Notes under the pieces: generated by a model
What the model saw: the letters and a program-made list of their open reading frames with translations, nothing else
What the model was told of the DNA's origin: nothing
Database searches by the model: none
Origin: Acrocarpospora phusangensis
Lineage (GTDB): Bacteria; Actinomycetota; Actinomycetes; Streptosporangiales; Streptosporangiaceae
Length of the DNA stretch: 64,000 nt
Reading direction: 5' to 3'
Assembly (NCBI RefSeq): GCF_016862995.1
Contig: NZ_BOOA01000041.1
Coordinates: forward strand, 1 to 64,000
In this document: positions 7,368 through 62,819 of the stretch, one piece after another
How positions within the stretch are numbered: the stretch's first letter is position 1
Layout of the letters: the number at the start of each line of letters is the position of its first letter
Program-made: the position numbers and the translations under genes

Positions 7368-9023
7368 GTGAAACGTCTGAAAAGCATAGGGATGGCTGTC
7401 GTCCTACTTCTCGGCACGGTCATCGCGCTGGCCGCGCCGGCGTACGCGGCCCCGGTGATCTGCGAAACGTTCGGTTCCACGAGCATCCAGTCGGGCCGGT
7501 TCATCGTCATGAACAACGTCTGGGGGGCGAGCACCCCTCAGTGCATCGACGTGAACCAGGCGGGTGGGTTCACCATCCAGTCGGCCGGCCACAACAACGC
7601 CACGAACGGCGCTCCGGCCGCGTACCCGGCGATCTACGCGGGGTGCCACTACGGTAACTGCTCGACCGGCAGCAGCCTGCCCATGCAGGCCAGCAACCCG
7701 GCGTTCAACAACATCCGCAGCAGCGTGAGCTACAGCTACCCGTCCAGCGGGACCTACAACGCCGCCTATGACCTGTGGTTCGACCCGACTCCGCGGACCA
7801 ACGGGCAGAACACCGGCATCGAGGTCATGATCTGGCTGAACCGGCAGGGTTCGATCCAGCCGATCGGGTCGCAGGTGGGCACGGTCACGCTCGCGGGGAC
7901 GACCTGGCAGGTCTGGTTCGGCAACCCCGGCTGGAACGTGGTCTCGTACGTGCGGACCAGCACCGGCACCAGCCTGGACTTCAACATCAACACGTTCTAC
8001 ACCGACGCCGTGAACCGCGGGTACGCGCAGCGCAGCTGGTACCTGACCAGCGTGCAGGCCGGTTTCGAGCCGTGGATCGGCGGCGCCGGCCTGACCGTGA
8101 ACAACTTCACCTACACCACCACCGGCGGCGGCGACACCAGCCCGCCCACCACCCCCGGCAACCTGACCGCGTCGGGCACCACCGCGAACAGCACCAGCCT
8201 GTCCTGGTCGGCCTCCTCCGACAACGTGGGCGTCACCGGCTACGACATCTTCCGCAGGCAGGGCACGACCGGCACGTTCACCAACGTCGGCACCTCGACC
8301 GGCACCACGTTCGCGGCCACCGGTCTGACGGCATCGACGCAGTACCAGTTCTACGTGGTCGCCCGGGACGCGGCCGGCAACCAGTCGGCGCAGTCCAGCA
8401 CGGTCTCGGTCACCACGAGCGGAGGCGGCGGCGACACCAGCCCGCCCACCGCGCCCGGCAACCTGACGGCGTCGGGCACCACCGCGAGCGGCACGAACCT
8501 GTCCTGGTCGGCCTCCTCCGACAACGTCGGCGTGACCGGCTACACGATCTTCCGCAGGCAGGGCACGACCGGCACGTTCACCAACGTCGGCACCTCGACC
8601 GGGACGACGTTCGCGGCCACCGGTCTGACGGCGTCCACGCAGTACCAGTTCTACGTGGTCGCCCGGGACGCGGCCGGCAACCAGTCGGCGCAGTCGAGCA
8701 CGGTCTCGGTCACCACGAGCGGTGGCGGCACCACCGGCACCTGCACGGTCCGCTTCGACGCGTGGAACAACGGCTACGTGGCGCAGATGACCGTCAACGG
8801 CCCGCGCTCCGGCTGGACGTTCACGTTCGCGCTGCCGTCCGGGCACACGCTGACCGGTAGCTGGAACGCCCAGTGGACCACCAGCGGCTCGAACGTCACC
8901 GCCACCAACCAGTCACACAACGGGAACCTGTCCGCCGGGCAGTCCACCGGCATCGGGTTCCAGGCCACCCGGCCGAACGGCAACACCCAGCTCCCGACCA
9001 TCCCCGGCTGCACGGTCGTCTGA
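7368..9023 (+). CDS. secreted GH12 endoglucanase/xyloglucanase with two FN3 domains and CBM2
   Basis: 551 aa, starting at GTG with AGGAGGA 4-10 bases upstream. A Sec signal peptide (about 1-27, ending PAYAA) is followed by a GH12 catalytic domain (about 28-252). This has the DLWFDP motif, the likely nucleophile E152 in GIEVMIWLN and the acid/base E234 in AGFEPW. Two fibronectin type III domains (about 255-355 and 355-455) and a C-terminal CBM2 with paired cysteines (GTCTVRFDAWNNGY...PGCTVV) complete it. It cleaves beta-1,4-glucan or xyloglucan outside the cell. The CebR box just upstream predicts induction by cellobiose/cellotriose. The two FN3 domains are encoded by near-identical 300-bp direct repeats. 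Confidence 0.95.
   Translation: MKRLKSIGMAVVLLLGTVIALAAPAYAAPVICETFGSTSIQSGRFIVMNNVWGASTPQCIDVNQAGGFTIQSAGHNNATNGAPAAYPAIYAGCHYGNCSTGSSLPMQASNPAFNNIRSSVSYSYPSSGTYNAAYDLWFDPTPRTNGQNTGIEVMIWLNRQGSIQPIGSQVGTVTLAGTTWQVWFGNPGWNVVSYVRTSTGTSLDFNINTFYTDAVNRGYAQRSWYLTSVQAGFEPWIGGAGLTVNNFTYTTTGGGDTSPPTTPGNLTASGTTANSTSLSWSASSDNVGVTGYDIFRRQGTTGTFTNVGTSTGTTFAATGLTASTQYQFYVVARDAAGNQSAQSSTVSVTTSGGGGDTSPPTAPGNLTASGTTASGTNLSWSASSDNVGVTGYTIFRRQGTTGTFTNVGTSTGTTFAATGLTASTQYQFYVVARDAAGNQSAQSSTVSVTTSGGGTTGTCTVRFDAWNNGYVAQMTVNGPRSGWTFTFALPSGHTLTGSWNAQWTTSGSNVTATNQSHNGNLSAGQSTGIGFQATRPNGNTQLPTIPGCTVV
8125..8724 (+). repeat. two tandem 300-bp direct repeats encoding FN3 domains
   Basis: The segments 8125-8424 and 8425-8724 are aligned copies with a period of exactly 300 bp (for example GCGACACCAGCCCGCCCACC at 8131 and 8431). 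They differ at a few positions, so the duplication is recent or kept alike by gene conversion. Confidence 0.9.
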
Positions 9024-22257: not shown

Positions 22258-22836
22258 TCAGGTGACCGGCTCGCGCCACTGCGGGATCAGGTGCAGCGGC
22301 AGCTGCGGCTCGCGGGCCGGGCGGGTCTCCACGTCGGTGACCGGGGGCACGATCCGGGGGCTGAAGATCTCCTCGACGTACAGCAGGGGCGTGTCGCCGA
22401 GCATGATGATGTAACTGCGGCTCGCGCTGGTACGGCTGTCCGCCGCCCACCCGTTGAACCAGCGGGTGCCCGTACGCAGGAGCAGCCGGTGGTGGCCCGG
22501 CACGTGCTCGTCCAGGAGCCGCCCGAGCGGCACGTCGCCGCCGTCCACGATGCGGTCGATGACGGGGTGCCGGTCCGGCATCATCACGACGCGGTTCACC
22601 GACACCGCGGTGCCGTTGGCCCTGACCAGCTCGGAGTAGCGGACGATGACGGTCTGGTCGGCGGCGATGCGCAGGGGCGCGCGGACCTCGGCGGCCAGCG
22701 CCAGGCCGGCCTGGATGTGCTCCTGACGGCCGATCCTGACCCGCAGCTGCTCGCCCAGGAAGGCGGAGAGGATGCGGGTGGTGGAGCCGTCGTGGCCGAG
22801 GATCATGCGCGTCAGCGCTTCCGGCGCGATGTTCAT
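22258..22836 (-). CDS. chorismate pyruvate-lyase-like protein (Rv2949c/DUF98 type)
   Basis: 192 aa. The pattern [64 protein letters not shown] and [22 protein letters not shown] fits the PF01947 family. That family includes M. tuberculosis Rv2949c, which converts chorismate to 4-hydroxybenzoate and pyruvate. Its conserved late Glu (VEE) matches the family's product-binding region. It is the last of four same-strand genes that include a DAHP synthase and an exporter, which supports a role in an aromatic pathway. A UTRA-like fold without lyase activity is the main alternative. Confidence 0.65.
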
Positions 22837-22849
22837 ATGGGTTGTCCCT

Positions 22850-24538
22850 TCAGGAGGTGTGAGCGCGGTGGCGCGAAGGGGGGTTTTGCGGAGATTTGTG
22901 CTGCGCCTGCTCGTTTATGGCGTGCTGCGAGAGCACGGTGTCGGCCGCCTCGGCCACCCGCCCCGCCGCCTCGTAGAGCGCGATGAGCGACTTGACGGGA
23001 ACCTGGGGCTGGCTGGGGGGAGTGGGAGGGGAAGGAGGTTCGGGGGCGGGCCGGCGGGGCGGCGTCTCCCGGCGGACGAGCACCGGGACCACCCGCTCGG
23101 CGGGTTCCGCGGGCTCGGGCTCCCGGCGGGGCTTCGGCTCCGGCTGTGGGGCCTTCTTGACCCGCGACGGGGCCAGGAACAGTCCGAGCACGCCCGCCAC
23201 GGCGGCCATCGCCAGGCAGGTCAGCACGCTGGAGCTGTAGCCCGGCATCGGGCCCGACACGATCGGGTTGTCCATCAGCACGGCCGCGCAGGCCACGCCC
23301 AGCGCGGCCCCGACCTGCCGGGCCGACTGGCTGGCGCCGCCCGCCGCCGCGTACCGCTCGGGGCCGCCGGACAGCGCGGCCGCCGCCGAGATGGCCGTGC
23401 TGAGCGCGCCCAGGCCGAGGCCGAAGACGGCGCTGGAGGGCAGCCAGACCTCCAGCAGCCGGGGCGGCCCGTCCTGCATGCCCTGGGTGATCAGCCACAC
23501 GCAGGCGACGGTGACCAGCAGTGCCCCCGTGTAGATCACCGGCCGGGGCCCGTGCTTCTTGGTCAGCTGCCCGGAGATCAGGCCGGAGACCAGGACCCCC
23601 AGCGAGATCGGGGCCAGCCCGGCGCCCAGCAGCGCCGGATCGTCCGGCCACATGTCCCGCAGGTACATCGGCGCCATCACCAGCATCGGGAAGGCGATCA
23701 GGCCGTACAGCACGGAGAGGAGGCCGGCCAGGGCGAACATCGGCGTACGCCACAGGGCCAGCTCGATGGCCGGGACCGGGTGGTGCGCCGACCGCCAGAC
23801 GGCCGCCAGCAGCAGGACCAGGCCGGCCCCCAGCGCCGCCGCCAGCTGGGCGCTCCAGCCCCAGTTCGGGCTCTGCACGATCGCCCACACGATCACCGAC
23901 AGCGAGCCCATCAGCAGCACCGTGCCGAACGGGTCGGGCAGCCGGCCGGCCAGCCGCTTGGTGTGCGGCAGCGCCAGCGCGCAGCAGAGCAGGAGCGATC
24001 CCACGATCGCGCTCGGCATGAAGTAGGAGCGCCAGCCGAGGCCCTCGCCGAGCCAGCCGCCCGCCGCGTGCATCAGCGCGCCGCTCAGGCCGGGCGCGGC
24101 GCTCCACGCGCCGATCGCGGCGGCCCTGCGCTCGTCGGGGAAGGTGGACAGCAGCAGCGCCAGCGAGGACGGCACCATCGCCGCCGTGCCCACGCCCTGC
24201 AGCGCCCGCGCCACCAGCAGCAGCGGGAACGCCGTCACCGTGATCGCCAGTACGGCGCCTGCGGTGAACACGCCGAGTCCCAGCACCAGCAGCCGCCGGT
24301 GCCCGACCAGGTCGGCGACCCGCCCCGCGGTCGGCAGCAGCGCCGCGTACGGCACCGCGAACGCGGTGATCACCCACTGCAGCTCGGTGCGTTCCAGGCC
24401 GATCGCGATGGCCGTGTTGCTCATGACCGGGACGGCGAACGTCGCCCCGATCGAGTCGGTCATGGACAGCGCTATCGCGCCGAGGCACACCAGGAGGGTC
24501 AGCGCGGTGCGGCCGCGCTGCGCGGGGAGACCGGTCAT
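22850..24538 (-). CDS. MFS drug/metabolite exporter with extended C-terminus
   Basis: 562 aa, 14-TM DHA2-type major facilitator. The N-terminus is RTALTLLVCLGAIALSMTDSIGATFAVPVM with the motif A-like loop GRVADLVGHRRLLVLG and motif C-like segments. After the last helix (about residue 445) there is a 110-residue cytoplasmic tail: a Pro/Arg/Glu-rich linker, then helix SLIALYEAAGRVAEAADTVLSQHAI. The gene lies 55 bp after the DAHP synthase and 13 bp before the chorismate-lyase-like gene, so it probably exports the product of that operon. Confidence 0.9.
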   Translation of the reverse strand: MTGLPAQRGRTALTLLVCLGAIALSMTDSIGATFAVPVMSNTAIAIGLERTELQWVITAFAVPYAALLPTAGRVADLVGHRRLLVLGLGVFTAGAVLAITVTAFPLLLVARALQGVGTAAMVPSSLALLLSTFPDERRAAAIGAWSAAPGLSGALMHAAGGWLGEGLGWRSYFMPSAIVGSLLLCCALALPHTKRLAGRLPDPFGTVLLMGSLSVIVWAIVQSPNWGWSAQLAAALGAGLVLLLAAVWRSAHHPVPAIELALWRTPMFALAGLLSVLYGLIAFPMLVMAPMYLRDMWPDDPALLGAGLAPISLGVLVSGLISGQLTKKHGPRPVIYTGALLVTVACVWLITQGMQDGPPRLLEVWLPSSAVFGLGLGALSTAISAAAALSGGPERYAAAGGASQSARQVGAALGVACAAVLMDNPIVSGPMPGYSSSVLTCLAMAAVAGVLGLFLAPSRVKKAPQPEPKPRREPEPAEPAERVVPVLVRRETPPRRPAPEPPSPPTPPSQPQVPVKSLIALYEAAGRVAEAADTVLSQHAINEQAQHKSPQNPPSRHRAHTS

Positions 24539-24593
24539 GGGGTTCTCCTGTCCGAGCCGCGGGCGCCGGGGAGAGACGCCCGCGTGTCGTGTC

Positions 24594-25652
24594 TCAAGCG
24601 CCGACCGGGACCCGGGCGGCGTGCCCGGTCAGCGTCAACGGGGAGATCGCGGGGATTCGGTTGACCAGCGGGGCGAAGGCGGACACGGTGTCGGCCAGCT
24701 CGCGGAGGTCGTCGTGGACCAGCGCCTGGGCGCCGTCGCAGAGCGCCTGCGACGGGCGGGGGTGCACGTCCACGATGATCCCGTCCGCGCCGACCGCGAT
24801 GGCCGCCCGGGACAGCGGCAGCACCAGGTCGCGGTGGCCGCCGGAGTGCGACGGGTCCACCACCACCGGCAGGTGGGACAGCCGCTGCGCGACCGGCACC
24901 GCCGAGATGTCCAGCGTGTTCCTGGTGGCGGTCTCGAAGGTCCTGATGCCGCGCTCGCACAGCACCACCCGCAGGTTGCCCTGCTGGGCGATGTACTCGG
25001 CGGCCAGCAGCCAGTCCTCGATCGTGCCGCTCATGCCCCGCTTGAGCAGGACCGGGCGGCCCGACCGGCCGGCCGCGCGCAGCAGCGTGAAGTTCTGCGC
25101 GTTGCGGGCGCCGATCTGCAGCATGTCCGCGTACGAGGCGACCAGCTCGACGTCGCGGGCGTCCACCACCTCGGTGACCACCGGCATGCCGGTCTCCGCC
25201 CCGACCTCGGCCAGGATCTTCAGCCCGGGTTCGCCGAGCCCCTGGAACGCGTACGGCGAGGTGCGCGGCTTGAACGCGCCGCCGCGCAGGATCACCGCGC
25301 CGGCCGCCCTGGCCATCTGGGCGGCCTCCAGGGTCTGCTGCGGCGACTCCACCGCGCACGGCCCGGCGATCATGGTCACCGTGCCGGGCCCGATCGGCAC
25401 CGGGCCGACCCAGACGGTGGACCGCTCCGCGTGCCCCTCCCGGCTCACCAGCTTGTACGGCGCGGACACCCGCCGCACCTCCGCGACCCCGCGCAGGTCC
25501 AGCGAGCCGACCTGGTCGACCGCCCCCGACAGGGCGATGATGGTCCGGCTGACACCCTGGCTGACGAAGGCCTCGCAGCCGCGGGCGGTGACGGCGTCCA
25601 CGACGGACGCGATGTCCTCGGTGGTGGCCCCTGGGCTCATTGAGATGATCAT
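24594..25652 (-). CDS. 3-deoxy-7-phosphoheptulonate (DAHP) synthase, Bacillus-type
   Basis: 352 aa. An N-terminal ferredoxin-like regulatory domain (MIISMSPGATTEDIASVVDAVTARGCEAFVSQG...) precedes the barrel. Key barrel motifs are AGPCAVES, GGAFKPRTSPYAFQG, LKRGMSGTIEDWLLAAEYI, CERGIRTFE and DPSHSGG. It joins phosphoenolpyruvate and erythrose-4-phosphate to open the shikimate pathway. Many actinobacteria use the plant-type (class II) enzyme for housekeeping; an extra copy of this type within a small operon usually boosts shikimate flux for a secondary metabolite. Its ATG overlaps the upstream stop by 4 bp. Confidence 0.92.
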   Translation of the reverse strand: MIISMSPGATTEDIASVVDAVTARGCEAFVSQGVSRTIIALSGAVDQVGSLDLRGVAEVRRVSAPYKLVSREGHAERSTVWVGPVPIGPGTVTMIAGPCAVESPQQTLEAAQMARAAGAVILRGGAFKPRTSPYAFQGLGEPGLKILAEVGAETGMPVVTEVVDARDVELVASYADMLQIGARNAQNFTLLRAAGRSGRPVLLKRGMSGTIEDWLLAAEYIAQQGNLRVVLCERGIRTFETATRNTLDISAVPVAQRLSHLPVVVDPSHSGGHRDLVLPLSRAAIAVGADGIIVDVHPRPSQALCDGAQALVHDDLRELADTVSAFAPLVNRIPAISPLTLTGHAARVPVGA

Positions 25653-26197
25653 CGCTGCGCCCGTCGTGCCGGTCCCGGCCACAGGACGCCGCCCTGGTTC
25701 TCGATGGCCGCCTCCAGGGCGGACATCAGCTGCATGGTCTGCTGCCTGAGCTCGCGGACCGCCGCCACCATGTCGGGCGAGAGCGTCTCCCCCGGCCGGT
25801 CCTGCAGTCCGGCCGCGGCCGTCCGCAGCCGCAGGTGCATCTCGTACGCGATGTCGGCGTCGGCCACCGGGGCCGACAGGGGCGCGGGCCGGGGCGGCGG
25901 GATGGGCCGGCCGACGGGGAGCACGGTGCCGGCCTCCTCGGAGGGCAGCCACCCTTGCCATGGCTGTACTCCCACGGGCATCGGGCGGGCGTGCCGGCCC
26001 TGGACCGGCCGCTGCCCGGTGACCGCCTCCGGCGGGTCGTCCGCGTACGGGTCGATGGGCGGGGCCTGCCGGGGGACTGCGGCGGTGGGTGCGGTGACCG
26101 GGGGCATCGGGTAGGGCGGGGTGGTCACCAGGTGGTCGGGGAAGGCCGGAGGCCGGGGGCGGTCGGGTCCGGTGCCGGGAAACGGGTTGCGGCGCAT
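25649..26197 (-). CDS. Pro-rich protein with C-terminal helical domain, unknown
   Basis: 182 aa. The first 110 residues are Pro/Ala-rich and probably disordered. The last 70 (DADIAYEMHLRLRTAAAGLQDRPGETLSPDMVAAVRELRQQTMQLMSALEAAIENQGG) look like a two- or three-helix bundle. It overlaps the DAHP synthase start by 4 bp (ATGA) and heads the four-gene operon. A chorismate-mutase-like role is tempting from the helix and context, but no mutase active-site pattern is evident. Confidence 0.65.
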   Translation of the reverse strand: MRRNPFPGTGPDRPRPPAFPDHLVTTPPYPMPPVTAPTAAVPRQAPPIDPYADDPPEAVTGQRPVQGRHARPMPVGVQPWQGWLPSEEAGTVLPVGRPIPPPRPAPLSAPVADADIAYEMHLRLRTAAAGLQDRPGETLSPDMVAAVRELRQQTMQLMSALEAAIENQGGVLWPGPARRAQR

Positions 26198-26471
26198 GCC
26201 GCTCCTTCGGGTCAGCGGGCGCGCGGGCCCGCGTTGAACTGGGGTTCGGGGCGGTGCTCGGGTCAGGAACTCGGGGGGAGAGGCTCGGGGGAGAGGCTCC
26301 TGGGGCAGGACCGCTGATCCTCACGGATCAATGTTCATGACCTGCTATTTCTTCTCGACGGCGTTCTTGACAAGATTCAATTCTTTGAGTCGGGAGCATA
26401 GACAGGCGAACTCCATTCACGCTAGTGCTTCGATGAAAGTTCACATAAATGGCACACGGAGGGCACTGTTC

Positions 26472-26494
26472 CTGACTCTGGTCAGCTTACTGAC
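26472..26494. repeat. CTGAC/GTCAG half-site array, 9-bp period
   Basis: CTGAC (26472-26476), GTCAG (26481-26485) and CTGAC (26490-26494) alternate with 4-bp spacers (TCTG, CTTA), forming two overlapping dyads. Another GTCAG follows at 26506-26510. This looks like a cooperative operator. Confidence 0.5.
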
Positions 26495-26544
26495 AAACCA
26501 ATTCTGTCAGGGGCCGAGGAGGTATCAGAAATGTTCTTAAGCGA

Positions 26545-26568
26545 CCCTTGACAACCCCGTGTCAAGGG
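26545..26568. promoter_or_regulatory. 9-bp inverted repeat overlapping a -35-like TTGACA
   Basis: CCCTTGACA (26545-26553) and TGTCAAGGG (26560-26568) are perfect inverted repeats around ACCCCG. The arm contains TTGACA, so the dyad could be an operator over a promoter, or a terminator-like hairpin. Confidence 0.45.
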
Positions 26569-26664
26569 CCTGACCATCACATTGATTGCCTGGCGTGCTC
26601 GGGGAGACGGTCACCGCAGGGTGAGTGAGAAGGGCGCCAGGCAGTCGGAAAACTAAATCAGGAA

Positions 26665-26699
26665 CTTATCTAGAGAGCTTTGCGAGTCTTATCTAGAGA
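26665..26699. repeat. 12-bp direct repeat CTTATCTAGAGA, 23-bp period
   Basis: CTTATCTAGAGA occurs at 26665-26676 and 26688-26699. The pair ends 18 bp before the ATP-grasp start codon. Direct repeats two helical turns apart upstream of a gene are typical binding sites of activators such as SARPs. Confidence 0.6.
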
Positions 26700-26717
26700 C
26701 GTTACTTCATATTCCCG

Positions 26718-28136
26718 ATGCAATTCCCGCCGAGTAGAACGGTGGCCGCTGTGAACCCTGCCTATCCGTATTCAGAAGCCGACGATCAGGAGCCCGTGCC
26801 GACTCCGGTGCGACGCCCTTGGCCGCACCGCAGGACCGTACGGCCGGTGCCCGAGGCCGGTCCGCTGGTGGCGATGATCGGCGGCGGCCAGGCCGACAGG
26901 ACCGGCCGCGAGCACCTCTTCCGCCGGCTGCACGAGGCCGGGATCCGGGTGCTGGCCGTCGACAGGTCCGCCCCCGCCGCCTGGCAGCGGCCGTACCTGG
27001 CCGGGCACAAGTGGGTGCCCGGGATGACCGCGGCCACCCTGTCCCAGGTCGTCGCCGCCCACCCGGAACCCGTCAACGGGGTGATCTGCTGGGAGGACCG
27101 GCACTTCGCCGCCGCCGCTGCCGTCGCCGACCGGCTCCGGCTGCCCGGCTTCGGGCGTACGGCCGCCACGGCCAGCCGGGACCGGGCGGTCACCCGTACC
27201 CTGCTGGAGTCCTCCGGCTGCACGGTGCCGCGCTCGGCGCTCGCCGTCGACCTGGCCGAGGCCGAGGAGGCGGCGCGGACGCTCGGCTACCCGGTCGTGC
27301 TCAAGCCCCGGCTCAAGACCACCGGCTTCCCGGCCCGGCTGGCCGAGGACCACGGCCGGCTGATCACCGGGTTCGCCGCCACCGCCGGCGCCGCCTCGGC
27401 CACCCTGGGCGGCCGCCGCGGCGTGCTGGTGGAGCAGCGCCTGGACGGGCAGGAGATCGTCGCCATCTGCCTGACCACCGGCGGGGTCACCCAGCTCGTC
27501 AGCATCGTCCGCACCATGGTGGAGTTCACCCCCAGCGCGGCCGACCTCGGCCACCTGGTGGACGCCGCCGACCCGCTCCTCGACGACCAGACCATCCGGC
27601 ACGCCGCCAACGTGAGCCTGCGGGCCCTCGGCGTACAGGACGGCGCCAGTCAGGTGAGCATGCGGCTCACCCCGGCCGGGCCGTGCGTGATGGCCGTAAA
27701 CGCCGGGCTGCACGACCTGGTCACCCGGCTGGTCTACCTGGCCACCGGGGCCGACCTGGCCACCGCGGAGACCATGATCGCCTGCGGCGCGCCGCTGACC
27801 GTCACGCCGCAGCGCCACCACCGCGTGGCGGCCGTCACGTACCTCAGCGCGCCCGCCCCGGGCAAGGTGTCCCGCCTTGAGCTGGGCGCCCAGCTGAGCG
27901 ACCACGTCGGCCGCGCCGCCTGGCTCGAACGACTCGTGCTGGACGTCGCGCCCGGCAGCGCGGTGGACCCGTCCCCCGACGGGCACACCGCGCGCATCGG
28001 CCTGGCCGTCGTCACCGGCCGCAACCGCAGGGAATGCCACGAACGGCTGGACCGGCTGCGCAGGGCGCTGAAGGTCACCGTCGTCGCGGTCGACGGCTCC
28101 ACGCCGCCGGCCATGTCGGTATCGGGCTCCCGATAA
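26718..28136 (+). CDS. ATP-grasp enzyme of the CARNS/carbamoyl-phosphate-synthetase-like class
   Basis: 472 aa. An N-terminal Rossmann-like domain (GPLVAMIGGGQADRTGREHLFRRLHEAGIRVLAVDR...GVICWEDRHFAAAAAVADRLRLPG) is followed by the ATP-grasp fold (TASRDRAVTRTLLESSGCTVPRSALAV...YPVVLKPRLKTTGFPARL...GVLVEQRLDGQEIVAICLTTGG) and a C-terminal domain ending in a duplicated RxECHERLDRLRRAL helix. Such enzymes form amide bonds through acyl phosphates. The late metal-binding segment (AGPCVMAVNAG) lacks the usual E-x-N (EVN), so catalysis is not assured. It probably shares a transcript with the sigma-like gene 35 bp downstream. Confidence 0.75.
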   Translation: MQFPPSRTVAAVNPAYPYSEADDQEPVPTPVRRPWPHRRTVRPVPEAGPLVAMIGGGQADRTGREHLFRRLHEAGIRVLAVDRSAPAAWQRPYLAGHKWVPGMTAATLSQVVAAHPEPVNGVICWEDRHFAAAAAVADRLRLPGFGRTAATASRDRAVTRTLLESSGCTVPRSALAVDLAEAEEAARTLGYPVVLKPRLKTTGFPARLAEDHGRLITGFAATAGAASATLGGRRGVLVEQRLDGQEIVAICLTTGGVTQLVSIVRTMVEFTPSAADLGHLVDAADPLLDDQTIRHAANVSLRALGVQDGASQVSMRLTPAGPCVMAVNAGLHDLVTRLVYLATGADLATAETMIACGAPLTVTPQRHHRVAAVTYLSAPAPGKVSRLELGAQLSDHVGRAAWLERLVLDVAPGSAVDPSPDGHTARIGLAVVTGRNRRECHERLDRLRRALKVTVVAVDGSTPPAMSVSGSR

Positions 28137-28171: not shown

Positions 28172-31105
28172 ATGGTTAGCCGAGCACCGCAGGACCCGAC
28201 GGAAGCCGCTCCGCCGAAGGCCCCCACCATGCGGTTACCCGCGGCTGAAGACCTCATCTCCGACCACGGGCGGAGCCTCTACGACTACTGTTCCCTCTGG
28301 CTCGGCGACAAGCTCGCCACCATCAACGCGGTGCGCAACACCTTCGCGCTGGCGGTGGTGCATCAGGACCTCTACCCCGGGCACGAGCACCTGCGCTCCT
28401 GGCTGTACGCCATCGCCAGGGTGCACTGCCTCGCCCAGCCCCACTACGGCGGCTTCACCACCGCCCCCTTCCCCCGCATCGGCGCGCAGAGCGGGCACGA
28501 CACCGAGCTGACCGCCAACGCGATGGGGGCGCTCGGGCGGCGCGAGCGGGAGGTCCTGGAGCTCATCCACCGGCACGGGCTCTCCATCCCCGCCGTCGGC
28601 CTGGTGCTCGGCGTCCCCACCGACGAGGCCGCCCGCCTCGCCCTGGGCGCCCAGGACCTGGTCGAGTCCTTCGTGACCTGCGTACGGCTGGCGCAGACCG
28701 GCCGCTCGGTCTGCCAGGCCGGCGAGCCGATCGCGCTGGACTGGCTGGAGTCGCCCCGCCGGGAACTGCGCAGCCGCCTCAAGACGCACGTGGCCACCTG
28801 CGCGACGTGCGCCAAGGCGGCCAGCATGACCGTGTCGGTGCCCGCGCTGCTGGCCCGGCTGCCGATCGCCGAACTGGACGACCTCGCCAGGTCCAGGATC
28901 GAGCAGCCGGTCCGGCCGGAGAGCGTCGAGATCCGCTGGAGCCAGCACGACTACCCGCTCCAGCCGGACGCGTACGACGTGTTCGACACCCTGTCCGGCT
29001 CCTCCGGATCCGCCGGGTCCGGGCTGGACGACGAGCCGGTGCGGCGCCGGGGGCCGTGGGAGCCCGGCGCCCACCCGAACGGCCCCTCCAACGGGCAGTC
29101 CAACGGCCAGTCCAATGGCCACTCCAACGGCCACAGCGGCCAGAACGGTCACGCGGATCGGCATGCCAGGAGCTACTCCGACGGGCAGCCGAACGGCCGC
29201 TCCAACGGTCACGTGGGCAGGCACGCCACCGGCCACCCGAACGGCCACCCGAACGGTCACGCCGACGCCCGCGGGGACGGCTATCACCACGAGTCCGAGC
29301 CGATGTTCCGGGACTCGCGGGGACGGCCGCGCTCGATGCCGCTGAGCGCGCCGGTCTACGAGGACTACTACGCCGACGCCGAAGAGGCCCACCGACCCTC
29401 CGGTCCTTCCGCCCCACACCCAACGGAAGACGCCTGGGAGGAGCGTCGCCCTCCCGCCCCCCGCCTGCCGGACGAGGTGCGGGAGGGCCGCGCATCGCAG
29501 GAGTGGGACGAGGCCCGTGAAGCCCGCGCATCCCGCGAATGGGACGAAGCCCGGGGAAACCGTGCGCCCGGCGAATGGAACGAAGCCCGGGACGGCCGCG
29601 CACCCCGCGAATGGGACGAGGTGCGGGATACCCGCGTACCGCGCTACTGGGACGAAGCGCAGGAAGTTCGCGAACCGCACGAGTGGGACGAGGTGCGGGA
29701 GCATCGCGTCCTGCGCGACTGGGACGGGGTACGGGAAGGCGCGTCGCGCGACTGGGACGAGACGCGGGACGGCCGCGCGCCGCGTGGCTGGGACGAGGCG
29801 CGCGACGGCCGCGCGCCGCACAGATGGGACGACGGGCGGGAGAGCCGCCTGCCGCGTCCTTGGGACGACGGACGGAACGACGGACGGAACGACGGACGGG
29901 ACGGCGGACGGGACGGCGGACGGGACGGCGGACGGGACGGCGGACGGGACGGCGGACGGGACGGCGGACGGGACGGCGGGCTTGACGAGCGGGAAGGCCG
30001 TGCGCGTCCGTGGGATGACCGGGTCTGGGAGAACCGCCCGGCGCCCCGGCTGCCCGAACGCGCCTGGGACGACGCGACCCCGCTGCGCACCCGCCGCCCG
30101 CGCCCGAACGTGCACGGCATCCCGGCCCCGCGCCGTCCCCTCGACGACGCGCTCCCGCCCGGGGAGGAGATCTGGGACCGCCGGATCACCGCCCGGGTGC
30201 CGATGCCCCGGGAACGCTCCGACGTCTCCGTGGCGTCGGTGTCATCCGTGGGCTCAGCGGCCAGGGTGACCGTCCGGGCGACCGGAGCCGAGGTGTGGGA
30301 CGAGGACGCCTCCACCCGGAGCAAACTGGCCAGGCGCGGCTTCCGGGCGCGGGCCAGGCTGCGCCGGGAGGCCAGGGCCGCCAAGGCGGCCAAGACCGGC
30401 CGGGAGCGGCCGCGCCGCCTCCGGGCGGTCGCGCTCGGAGCGGCCGCGCTGCTGATCGTGTCGCTGGCGTGGCGCGGGCTGTCGGCCCGGGAGTACTCCG
30501 CCTCCGGGGCGACCGCGATCCAGACGAGCGCGGCCGCGCTGCCGGCGGCCGTACCGCAGCTGGCCAAGCCGGTGCCTCCGGTGCCGTCGGCGTCGCCGAG
30601 CGCCGAGAAGCGCGGCGCGGCCCCCTCGGCGAAGCCGAAGCCGTCACCGACGCAGCGCCGTACCCAGCCGGTCAGCAAGCCCGTGGTGCGGCCGGCCGTG
30701 AAGCCGACTGTGAAGCCCAGTGTGAAGCCCAGTATCAAGAAGGCACCCGTGGTCCGCCCGGTGCTGTCCGTCCGGCCGGAGGCCCTGGAGCTGGCGGACG
30801 GCACCGGGTTCGTCACCTTCTCCGTCAACGCGGGGAAGGTCAAGTGGCGGGCCGAGAGCGAGCAGGGGCTGGTGGAGATCAGCCCGCGCTCCGGCACCGT
30901 CAAAGCCGGCAAGAAGATCCGCCTGGAGGTCGGCCTCACCGACGAGGGTCTGCTCAACGCGTCCTGCCTGTTCGACTTCGACGACGAACTGGACGTGGAG
31001 ACCAGCGTGATGGACGTCATCACCATCAGGTGGACCGGCGAGAACAAGGGCGTCAGCACCGGCGGCAGGATCACCCTGACCGTCGCCAGCTGCACGTCCG
31101 GCTGA
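28172..31105 (+). CDS. membrane-tethered sigma-70/ECF-like protein with zf-HC2 motif, tandem repeats and extracellular domain
   Basis: 977 aa from the ATG at 28172 (GGGAGAAAAAGGG upstream). Order: ECF region 2-like (about 28-87, SLYDYCSLWLGD...LRSWLYAIARVHCL), region 4-like HTH (about 118-168, ALGRREREVLELIHRHGLSIPAVGLVLGV), and an anti-sigma-type zinc motif H206-x3-C210-x2-C213. A NG[QHRP] low-complexity stretch (303-365), about ten 12-residue EWDEARDxRAPR repeats (444-565), a DGGR run (to about 607), a basic segment, one TM helix (about 750-768), a Pro/Lys linker and an Ig/BACON-like outer domain (about 865-977) follow. The region-2 acidic patch is degenerate. I infer a tethered regulator sensing an outside signal; sigma activity is unproven. 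Confidence 0.75.
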   Translation: MVSRAPQDPTEAAPPKAPTMRLPAAEDLISDHGRSLYDYCSLWLGDKLATINAVRNTFALAVVHQDLYPGHEHLRSWLYAIARVHCLAQPHYGGFTTAPFPRIGAQSGHDTELTANAMGALGRREREVLELIHRHGLSIPAVGLVLGVPTDEAARLALGAQDLVESFVTCVRLAQTGRSVCQAGEPIALDWLESPRRELRSRLKTHVATCATCAKAASMTVSVPALLARLPIAELDDLARSRIEQPVRPESVEIRWSQHDYPLQPDAYDVFDTLSGSSGSAGSGLDDEPVRRRGPWEPGAHPNGPSNGQSNGQSNGHSNGHSGQNGHADRHARSYSDGQPNGRSNGHVGRHATGHPNGHPNGHADARGDGYHHESEPMFRDSRGRPRSMPLSAPVYEDYYADAEEAHRPSGPSAPHPTEDAWEERRPPAPRLPDEVREGRASQEWDEAREARASREWDEARGNRAPGEWNEARDGRAPREWDEVRDTRVPRYWDEAQEVREPHEWDEVREHRVLRDWDGVREGASRDWDETRDGRAPRGWDEARDGRAPHRWDDGRESRLPRPWDDGRNDGRNDGRDGGRDGGRDGGRDGGRDGGRDGGRDGGLDEREGRARPWDDRVWENRPAPRLPERAWDDATPLRTRRPRPNVHGIPAPRRPLDDALPPGEEIWDRRITARVPMPRERSDVSVASVSSVGSAARVTVRATGAEVWDEDASTRSKLARRGFRARARLRREARAAKAAKTGRERPRRLRAVALGAAALLIVSLAWRGLSAREYSASGATAIQTSAAALPAAVPQLAKPVPPVPSASPSAEKRGAAPSAKPKPSPTQRRTQPVSKPVVRPAVKPTVKPSVKPSIKKAPVVRPVLSVRPEALELADGTGFVTFSVNAGKVKWRAESEQGLVEISPRSGTVKAGKKIRLEVGLTDEGLLNASCLFDFDDELDVETSVMDVITIRWTGENKGVSTGGRITLTVASCTSG
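29082..29280 (+). repeat. NG-rich low-complexity coding repeat
   Basis: A run of 9-12-bp units encodes SNGQ, SNGH, HPNG and similar tetrapeptides, giving a Asn/Gly/His-rich disordered segment in the sigma-like protein. Confidence 0.8.
29501..29870 (+). repeat. 36-bp tandem repeats encoding EWDEARDxRAPR units
   Basis: About ten 12-codon units, each with a Trp-Asp core (EWDEAR, EWNEAR, YWDEAQ, DWDETR, RWDDGR). One unit has 11 codons. Sequence drift between units but constant W-D spacing suggests selection on protein structure. Confidence 0.85.
29866..29982 (+). repeat. 12-bp tandem repeats encoding DGGR/NDGR units
   Basis: Near-perfect GACGGCGGACGG units follow two NDGR units. The array is expected to vary in copy number by slippage; each unit keeps the reading frame. 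Confidence 0.9.
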
Positions 31106-31210: not shown

Positions 31211-32818
31211 TTATCTGCGGACGTCGGGCGGATTGATCCCGTGGTCGCGCAGAGCCTTGTACACGGTGGCCTGGGACAGGCCGGTCCTGCGTTCGATCAG
31301 CGACAGGTTCTGGGTGCCCGCCCGCCAGCATTCGGCGATCAGCTGGTCCCGCTTGCCGCGCGCGGCCATCTCGGCGTCGGCGGTGTGCGTCAGGATCTCG
31401 CTCAACCGGCCGATGCCCTGGAGCAGCCGCAGGTTGACGCCCTGCCGCAGCTGGGTCAGCTCGGCGATCTCCGCCACCGACCGCTCCAGCGCCTCCACCA
31501 GCGGCGACGGCGGCGCGTGCCGCCCCCGCCCGGGGTGCCGCTGGTAGCCGTTGCGGCGCGCGGCCAGGATGATGCGCTCCACCTCGGCCTTGGGCAGCCC
31601 GCTGGCCCGGCGCAGCGCGGCCGCGTTGGTGGCGCCGCTCTCCCAGCAGGCCACGATCAGCTCGGCCCGCTCCCGATCGGCTCTCGCGATGGCCGCGCCC
31701 GCGGCGGTGAGATCAGTCAGCAAGGGCCGCCACTCGGCCAGCCTTCCCGGTTCCGCCGCCCGCCCGGGTCGCCCCAGGCGTTCCGGCTCCGTGGGCTGCC
31801 CCACGGGTTCCGGCTCGGACGCCCGCCGGGCGATGATCTGCCGCAGCGTGCCCTGCCGGAGTCCGGAGGCCGCCGCCAGCCGGGCGCTGGCGTTCTCCCC
31901 GGCGATCAGGGCGAAGGTCCGTACCAGATCGTTGCGGTCGCGGCGGCAGGCGGCCACCTCGGCGGAGACCTCACGCCACCGGCGGGCCGCCTCGGCGGCC
32001 TCGGCCAGCGCCATCACGGCCTCCGGGGACGGCGTCCTGGCGGCCCGCTCGCGCAGCCGCTCACGGCGCAGCTGGGCGGCGTGCCGGGGGCAGCGGCCGA
32101 GATCCCTGGCCCGCTCCTGGCAGCCCTCCACGGCGCACGGGCGGCGCTCCCAGCGGGGCGGCACCCGGGTGGGGTCGCCGTAGGCGCGGCGGCGCTGGTA
32201 GTGCATGCCGCACAGCTCGCGGCTCCACACCGCCCGCCCGCAGCCCTCGACCGAGCACAGGTGCTGCGCCTCCGGCTGGGTCCGGTCCCGCTGCCGGGTA
32301 CGGCGCGGCCGCGCGTCCCCCGGGTCGCCCGTCTTGGCCAGCCGCGCGTAGTGCATCCCGCACAGCTTGCGCGCCACGACCGGCTTCTCGCAGCCGTCGA
32401 TCGAGCAGGGCAGCCCGTGCGCCAGGTAGTGCCCGCGGCACAGCCCCCGTGTGAAGATCTTGAGCTCGCAGCCGTCCTCGCCGCACACCCCGTCGGTGGA
32501 GCGCAGCCGCGACGTGGCCTCGCCCGCCCTGCCGGACTTGCGCACGCGCTGCACGTGCAGGCCGCACATGCCGCTGTCGGCGGACGGGCGCTCGCAGCCC
32601 TCGATCGAGCAGGGCGCCGCCACGGCGAGCCGCCAGAGGCGGTAATGCGACGTGCAGAGACCACGCCGATGGACCTGGCGGTCGCACTCCGCGGAGCACG
32701 TCGAGCGTTTCTCCGGGGCGCCGTAATAATGCTGGGCGCATACGCCGAGGGCCAGGACGGTCCGGCCGCATTCCCGGACGGAACATCCCTTATTCGTCAT
32801 GAGCGCTGGAGTGGTCAT
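31211..32818 (-). CDS. protein with seven C-x4-C-x9-C-x2-H zinc-knuckle repeats and three C-terminal HTH modules
   Basis: About 535 aa (residue numbers below are from the alternative start at 32824). Seven evenly built fingers, each like CSVEGCGRAVWSRELCGMHY, have ligands C14/C19/C29/H32, C43/C47/C57/H60, C72/C77/C87/H90, C114/C119/C129/H132, C140/C145/C155/H158, C190/C195/C205/H208 and C230/C235/C245/H248. Helical linkers then carry three similar HTH-like units: near 298-334 (NASARLAAASGLRQGTLRQII), 386-424 (TNAAALRRASGLPKAEVERII) and 494-530 (QNLSLIERRTGLSQATVYKAL). The knuckle type is seen in phage and mobile-element proteins. The architecture suggests a nucleic-acid-binding regulator. It follows the 403-aa unknown gene by about 20 bp. 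Confidence 0.75.
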   Translation of the reverse strand: MTTPALMTNKGCSVRECGRTVLALGVCAQHYYGAPEKRSTCSAECDRQVHRRGLCTSHYRLWRLAVAAPCSIEGCERPSADSGMCGLHVQRVRKSGRAGEATSRLRSTDGVCGEDGCELKIFTRGLCRGHYLAHGLPCSIDGCEKPVVARKLCGMHYARLAKTGDPGDARPRRTRQRDRTQPEAQHLCSVEGCGRAVWSRELCGMHYQRRRAYGDPTRVPPRWERRPCAVEGCQERARDLGRCPRHAAQLRRERLRERAARTPSPEAVMALAEAAEAARRWREVSAEVAACRRDRNDLVRTFALIAGENASARLAAASGLRQGTLRQIIARRASEPEPVGQPTEPERLGRPGRAAEPGRLAEWRPLLTDLTAAGAAIARADRERAELIVACWESGATNAAALRRASGLPKAEVERIILAARRNGYQRHPGRGRHAPPSPLVEALERSVAEIAELTQLRQGVNLRLLQGIGRLSEILTHTADAEMAARGKRDQLIAECWRAGTQNLSLIERRTGLSQATVYKALRDHGINPPDVRR

Positions 32819-32840
32819 CGGCACTCGTCAATGCGACCTG

Positions 32841-62640: not shown

Positions 62641-62663
62641 CGGGGCTGAACAAAAGAAAAGGG

Positions 62664-62734
62664 AGGTGGAGACGGGATTTGAACCCGTGTAGACGGCTTT
62701 GCAGGCCGTTGCCTCGCCTCTCGGCCACTCCACC
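62664..62734 (-). tRNA. tRNA-Cys (anticodon GCA), copy 2
   Basis: The minus strand has the same acceptor stem, D-arm, T-arm and CTGCAAA loop as copy 1 at 74-147. The lowest anticodon-stem pair is A-T instead of G-C (ACGGC/GCCGT vs GCGGC/GCCGC), a compensated change, and CCA is not encoded here. Confidence 0.95.
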
Positions 62735-62747
62735 GGGGAAGGTTCCG

Positions 62748-62819
62748 AGCGGAAGACGGGATTCGAACCCGCGACCCTCACCTTGGCAAGGTGATGCTCT
62801 ACCACTGAGCCACTTCCGC
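62748..62819 (-). tRNA. tRNA-Gly (anticodon GCC), copy 2
   Basis: It is identical to copy 1 except for one T-loop base (TTCGAATCC vs TTCGACTCC). It lies 13 bp upstream of tRNA-Cys copy 2. A TAGAAT -10-like element lies about 25 bases upstream on the minus strand. Confidence 0.95.

Follow-up and report, generated by a model that had tools for sequence, protein, structure and literature searches.

The gene at 28172..31105 of the window (the whole 64,000-nucleotide stretch of DNA that was analyzed, from a 9.1-Mb Acrocarpospora genome) encodes a 977-amino-acid protein, best explained from its sequence as an ECF sigma factor descendant that spans the membrane once and carries its own zinc anti-sigma (ZAS) domain in the same chain. 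The fusion is known in kind; the new element is a sigma domain that is eroded yet guarded. Judging from the sequence and a structure model, the chances are about even that the protein works as a membrane-held sigma mimic through protein–protein contacts and not through promoter binding.

Gene structure and topology

ATG 28172 opens an uninterrupted frame of 977 codons. The frame is open and its synteny is kept in the window gene and in all four congeners; constraint and synteny together rule out a chance ORF or a wrong frame. The features are listed below, with domain boundaries by residue of the 977-amino-acid protein, which are our own setting.

26718..28136, + strand: upstream ATP-grasp ligase gene (Pfam CPSase_L_D2 and LAL_C2)
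28172..31105, + strand: gene for the 977-amino-acid sigma2-sigma4-ZAS-linker-TM-stalk-Ig protein, with syntenic orthologs in four congeners
28244..28456, + strand: sigma region 2, residues 25-95 (NCBIfam matches to residues 24-87; AlphaFold helices 25-44, 47-63, and 71-87)
28316..28327, + strand: region 2.2 ATIN, residues 49-52, replacing the acidic DAED patch
28508..28687, + strand: sigma region 4, residues 113-172 (weak Sigma70_r4 match; fold match to isolated sigma4 domains)
28610..28663, + strand: segment aligned to the -35 recognition helix, residues 147-164, net charge -2
28688..28879, + strand: ZAS domain, residues 173-236, with ligands C181, H206, C210, and C213
28880..28987, + strand: conserved post-ZAS motif/tail SQHDYPLQPDAYD, residues 237-272
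28988..30376, + strand: low-complexity cytoplasmic linker, residues 273-735 (~460)
29071-29134: tandem repeat
29470..29856, + strand: 36-bp tandem array, 12-residue WDEARDGRAPR-type units
29862..29979, + strand: 12-bp tandem array, (RDGG)n
30425..30481, + strand: single TM helix, residues 752-770 (mean hydropathy 1.88; same position in four orthologs)
30497..30745, + strand: Pro/Lys-rich outer stalk, residues 776-858
30746..31102, + strand: Ig-like (PapD/MSP type, BACON-like) ectodomain, residues 859-977

An earlier sequence-only reading of this DNA had proposed one chain running from sigma regions 2 and 4 through an anti-sigma zinc motif and repeats to a TM helix and an outer domain. The order sigma2-sigma4-ZAS-linker-TM-outer domain was upheld in the gene product, and the single TM helix expected near residues 750-768 was found at 752-770. 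Thirteen Lys/Arg residues lie in the 30 residues before this helix and two in the 30 after it; by the positive-inside rule, the N-terminal part is therefore predicted to lie inside (N-in/C-out), with the sigma and ZAS domains on the predicted cytoplasmic side.

The ectodomain was modeled with confidence as an all-beta, Ig-like domain and has two conserved cysteines (932 and 974). BACON_2 matched the isolated ectodomain with E=4.9e-4 and 20.4 bits, under the Pfam cut-off of 25, and among 26 ectodomains that we chose for scanning, 15 matched it at E up to 0.05, including that of the window protein. The proposal of an outer Ig/BACON-like domain thus holds in the structure model, with a weak BACON_2 match. 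NPCBM, which we take to be smart00776, was absent from the Pfam matches of the window protein up to E=10, and the isolated ectodomain matched BACON_2 only; NPCBM_assoc, a different domain from NPCBM, matched one of the 26 relatives' ectodomains at 0.034.

Sigma and ZAS domains

In Pfam, the window protein on its own gave a weak Sigma70_r4 match (E=0.07), no Sigma70_r2 match at E up to 10, and no match at 0.01 within residues 1-263. The NCBIfam match to region 2 was clear (E=5.7e-5 over residues 24-87), and in an alignment of 44 rows of our choosing Sigma70_r4_2 matched 30, Sigma70_r2 27, and TIGR02937 32. A family profile matched PDB sigma factors with E=1.1e-14. The AlphaFold model shows a closed sigma part, like some anti-sigma-bound sigma factors and PhyR, which were among the top-ranked fold matches; only top-ranked matches were compared, and absence there excludes no sigma or Ig family. 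The ECF sigma-2/4 homology claimed for residues 28-168 is therefore weak in Pfam alone and clear in NCBIfam, family profiles, and fold; both regions are present with the ECF fold. WLYA, the core of region 2.3, is invariant in all 44 rows and at least 90% conserved in a separate set of 17 rows.

HVATCATC at residues 206-213 and C181 supply four zinc ligands, all invariant in the 44 aligned rows. This confirms the HxxxCxxC anti-sigma motif noted before and adds C181 as the fourth ligand. zf-HC2 (Pfam) matched 11 of the 44 family members, the window protein not among them, and an RsrA-like NCBIfam match to the latter was weak (E=0.027). By eye, a DGFPVQPD-like motif follows the ZAS domain in many relatives. 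No anti-sigma family was matched by Pfam in the 20 scanned window genes, four of which had no match at all, in agreement with the earlier statement that no separate anti-sigma gene is present.

Loss of contact charges under constraint

The window protein has neither the acidic region 2.2 patch nor the basic -35 helix of an ECF sigma factor. AT[IV]N occupies the DAED position in all five Acrocarpospora orthologs, which bears out the remark of the sequence-only reading that region 2 lacks the usual acidic DAEDAVQ patch, and T50 is kept in all five. Their 2.2 segment (residues 47-57) contains no acidic residue, with D46 of the window protein sitting just beyond the counted segment, whereas each of the 24 canonical ECFs compared from this genome has 3-5. 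The net charge of the -35 helix segment is -2 in 5/5 orthologs, compared with +1 to +5 in all 24 canonical proteins. These 24 were kept from 30 taken out of 69 Sigma70_r2 matches in the genome, after removal of L165, which is cut short, and of L161-L164 and L172, which did not look ECF-like.

To place the orthologs in their family, we used the best 80 of 384 related loci minus L097 and L128, which had a short N-terminal match; four loci and the window were added (83 rows), and 21 further rows gave 104. The 2.2 segment is free of acidic residues in seven of the 104 rows (five Acrocarpospora, L207, and L208), and the -35 helix carries -2 or less in 29, which refutes the idea that sigma erosion is exclusive to Acrocarpospora. 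In many relatives, the DNA-facing charges still look canonical. A 72-row tree groups the window protein with L051, L054, L055, L241, L242, L206, and L207 (98/99), with the branching order inside the group left open and some branches long; within this group, the helix is at -2 or below in 7/8 and the 2.2 segment is acidic-free in 4/8. The eight-row group nests in the wider family with its canonical-looking members, apart from ECF52-like proteins, and L083, L100, and L117, first counted to the family, place on the canonical side of the tree. In eight genomes of one same-class genus (L191-L198), we also saw proteins with sigma, HxxxCxxC, TM, and, by eye, a similar outer domain; their -35 helix segment is at -1 to -4 in 8/8.

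Pairwise Nei-Gojobori omega values between the window protein and the four congeners were 0.04-0.13 for sigma2 and 0.03-0.10 for sigma4. They were 0.14-0.18 in three pairs for ZAS (0.82 versus A. catenulata), 0.52-0.78 for the linker, and 0.32-0.63 for the ectodomain. Single values are rough because the stretches are short, but the ranking is still clear: the eroded sigma2 and sigma4 are the most constrained parts of the protein. Because the contact charges are lost yet the domains are tightly conserved, they may serve as a decoy and not as a true sigma factor. The loss of the basic -35 helix, this constraint, and the PhyR-like fold matches all add weight to the earlier suspicion of a sigma-derived regulator.

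Linker and repeats

The 36-bp array is an alignment gap in all four congeners, save for a 10-residue stray match in A. catenulata, and the (RDGG)n array is a gap in 4/4; in the congeners, the linker is shorter or contains different low-complexity sequence. W-D/E motifs number 18 in the window protein versus 5-9 in congeners. The arrays look like free-running filler and not a conserved device, and the repeats were rejected as the functional core. About 400 residues of repeats and low complexity had been described; they are present, although the length is nearer 460 and the repeats are not conserved. As for the one-chain signaling route, its domain order stands, but the repeats, being species-specific, are not an essential part of any such route.

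Long linkers also occur in a mainly Nonomuraea group. In the raw table, the -35 helix charge is at or below 0 in 15/17 long-linker rows versus 12/64 short-linker rows (Spearman -0.39), but a long linker was rejected as a mark of sigma erosion because the sign test was not significant, with only four independent pairs on well-supported branches. In 7/7 long-linker Nonomuraea loci (L076, L089, L095, L106, L121, L122, and L127), a gene from sequence cluster c0 is found downstream, encoded on the other strand; in both of the two loci scanned it is a Peptidase_S15 gene.

Distribution and relation to known systems

With the N-terminal part as query, matches were found in 45/60 relatives at E 1e-3 and in 163/200 same-family genomes at 1e-5. 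Among the best 80 of 384 related loci, HxxxCxxC is present in 80/80 and a TM segment behind it in 78/80; contig ends truncate the remaining two. The domain order is common in Streptosporangiaceae and resembles the published ECF48/52/53 fusions. Sigma-ZAS-TM fusions being both published and widespread in relatives, the fusion itself is not new, and neither is a sigma+ZAS+TM+outer chain as a kind, since excerpts of PMC8999054 (ECF48/52/53) and PMC5826349 (SCO4117) already describe such chains. The titles and abstract openings listed in our literature searches contained no description of this particular protein, which is no proof of absence.

In the same excerpts, ECF48, ECF52, and ECF53 are ZAS/TM fusions expected to be freed by proteolysis (PMC8999054, PMC5826349). 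ECF52, with SCO4117, combines an ECF sigma, a zinc finger, a TM helix, a Pro-rich outer part, and an outer domain in one chain (PMC5826349, in part). The zinc finger, TM, and Pro-rich extension behind the sigma domain are all found in the window protein, which differs in having no detected NPCBM, an Ig-like ectodomain instead, a long cytoplasmic linker, and eroded sigma contacts. Four ECF52-like proteins (L248-L251), named by architecture (sigma, HxxxCxxC, and NPCBM by our reading), retain an acidic region 2.2 by eye and join the canonical and glycosidase-fused rows of the tree (100/99), apart from the window protein. ECF48 and ECF53 share with it a C-terminally fused ZAS and one to two TM helices, with release by proteolysis expected; the extensions given in excerpts of PMC8999054 reach up to 400 residues, compared with about 800 here.

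Like PhyR, the window protein also has a sigma-like domain whose RNAP and promoter contacts are degenerate. PhyR, as excerpts of PMC8103513 describe it, uses such a fold to capture an anti-sigma in the alphaproteobacterial general stress response. The window protein differs in being membrane-tethered and actinobacterial, with its own ZAS domain and without a receiver domain, for which no Pfam match was found up to E=10.

Several other sigma-like fusions were seen. On contig 56 of the same genome, L204:1121-2824 (-) encodes a protein that joins a sigma-ZAS-like-TM part to a Glyco_hydro_cc catalytic domain, and L209 and L210 are similar fusions by eye. On contig 22, L037:4669-6243 (-) encodes a 525-amino-acid protein with a sigma-like N-terminus and a C-terminal TM but without HxxxCxxC. 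Its best NCBIfam match is a PhyR-family anti-anti-sigma (E=2.8e-8), all six of its PDB sequence matches up to E=1 are PhyR entries (two under 0.01), and matches to it occurred in 16/60 genomes searched. This ZAS-less, tail-anchored protein is a possible actinobacterial sigma mimic.

Proposed mechanism and alternatives

In the mechanism that we propose, the sigma part would no longer guide RNA polymerase to promoters, but its fold would still offer a surface for binding. The ZAS domain in cis would keep the sigma-like domain closed in the resting state; a ligand on the outside, or cleavage by a protease at the membrane, would then expose that domain or free the ZAS domain, and we infer that a signal passes through the protein in this way. 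The exposed domain could swap partners with another sigma/anti-sigma protein, for example of the more canonical-looking paralog L035, and partner exchange would alter transcription indirectly, as with PhyR. The PhyR-like L037 protein in the same genome supports partner exchange by analogy only.

Alternatively, the protein could be a functional ECF-type sigma factor that its own ZAS domain restrains until regulated proteolysis frees it, as proposed for ECF48/52/53; the altered contacts would then stem from an unusual promoter and possibly from phosphorylation of Thr50. We consider this possible but less probable than a sigma mimic. Its general domain order is that of SCO4117, whose deletion and truncation alter development in Streptomyces coelicolor (PMC5826349, in excerpts), the region 2.3 core WLYA is invariant, and many relatives retain canonical-looking DNA-facing charges; on the other side, the RNAP-facing and -35-facing charges are both lost here. 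EcfP (ECF43) provides a precedent for a sigma factor lacking DAED, as the window protein does, that is activated by Thr phosphorylation, with a Ser/Thr kinase encoded nearby, and phosphorylation of the conserved T50 might supply the missing charge. However, the phosphorylated Thr is third in the EcfP motif and T50 second in ATIN, L055 has no Thr at the equivalent motif, and Pfam found no protein kinase domain in the 20 scanned window genes.

The invariance of the four zinc ligands would also suit a ZAS domain acting in trans as a membrane anti-sigma for another sigma factor, with the fused sigma remnant only stabilizing or gating it. Membrane-bound anti-sigmas have a TM tether and an outer domain, as this protein does, and a real sigma factor could conceivably displace the eroded one. 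Against this, the ZAS domain is less constrained than sigma2 and sigma4 in the omega values above, and a gating remnant should be the freer of the two; we regard this reading as unlikely. Very improbable is gene decay, in which a once functional sigma fusion would be losing its role while repeat expansion pads it: large species-specific arrays and eroded sigma motifs might suggest this, but the frame and synteny are intact in the window and 4/4 congeners, and the strong purifying selection on sigma2 and sigma4 contradicts decay.

More broadly, and only tentatively, the protein may represent a class of actinobacterial membrane receptors with a pseudo-sigma output inside the cell: an ECF fold that lacks RNA-polymerase and DNA contacts but is maintained by strong selection, gated by ZAS in cis and steering real sigma factors by partner switching. 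Such a class would parallel PhyR, but tethered to the membrane and beyond Alphaproteobacteria, from which alone, to our knowledge, sigma mimicry is known. Should a conserved branch indeed have lost the residues that define a sigma factor, labeling its members "RNA polymerase sigma factor" would be misleading, and actinomycetes would have sigma mimicry as well. An eroded member and a more canonical-looking paralog in one genome offer a direct test case. Sigma-ZAS-TM fusions have been taken, in excerpts of PMC8999054, as membrane-held sigma factors awaiting release.

Genomic neighborhood

The ATP-grasp gene stops 35 bp before ATG 28172, with the same gap at 34-47 bp in 4/4 congeners, and is a probable operon partner. 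ATP-grasp genes also lie upstream of L055, but none was found among the 10 neighbor genes scanned around L241, L242, L206, and L207, so a clade-wide conserved neighbor was rejected: in the suggested check of relatives for the domain order and a conserved neighbor, the order proved common and no partner gene in common was found. L241 and L242 are flanked by BTAD and type III PKS-like genes. At both L206 and L207, a MinD/ParA-like ATPase gene adjoins the strongly eroded sigma-like gene.

Elsewhere in the window, 22258-28136 encodes a DAHP synthase (closest to BagF/FevY, with a score under the cut-off of that model) along with a chorismate-lyase-like protein, an MFS transporter, and the ATP-grasp ligase; together these may form a gene cluster for a shikimate-derived secondary metabolite. 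At 31211-32824 (-), a 537-amino-acid protein with repeated Cys/His motifs had no Pfam or NCBIfam match at 0.001 and is present in 4/4 congeners. Two 300-bp tandem copies (94% matches) at 8124-8729 lie within a gene for a GH12 glycosidase that also has fn3 and CBM_2 domains. A tRNA-Cys/tRNA-Gly pair occurs twice on the - strand, at 74-220 and 62662-62819, about 62 kb apart, the two pairs being about 90% alike over 159 bp.
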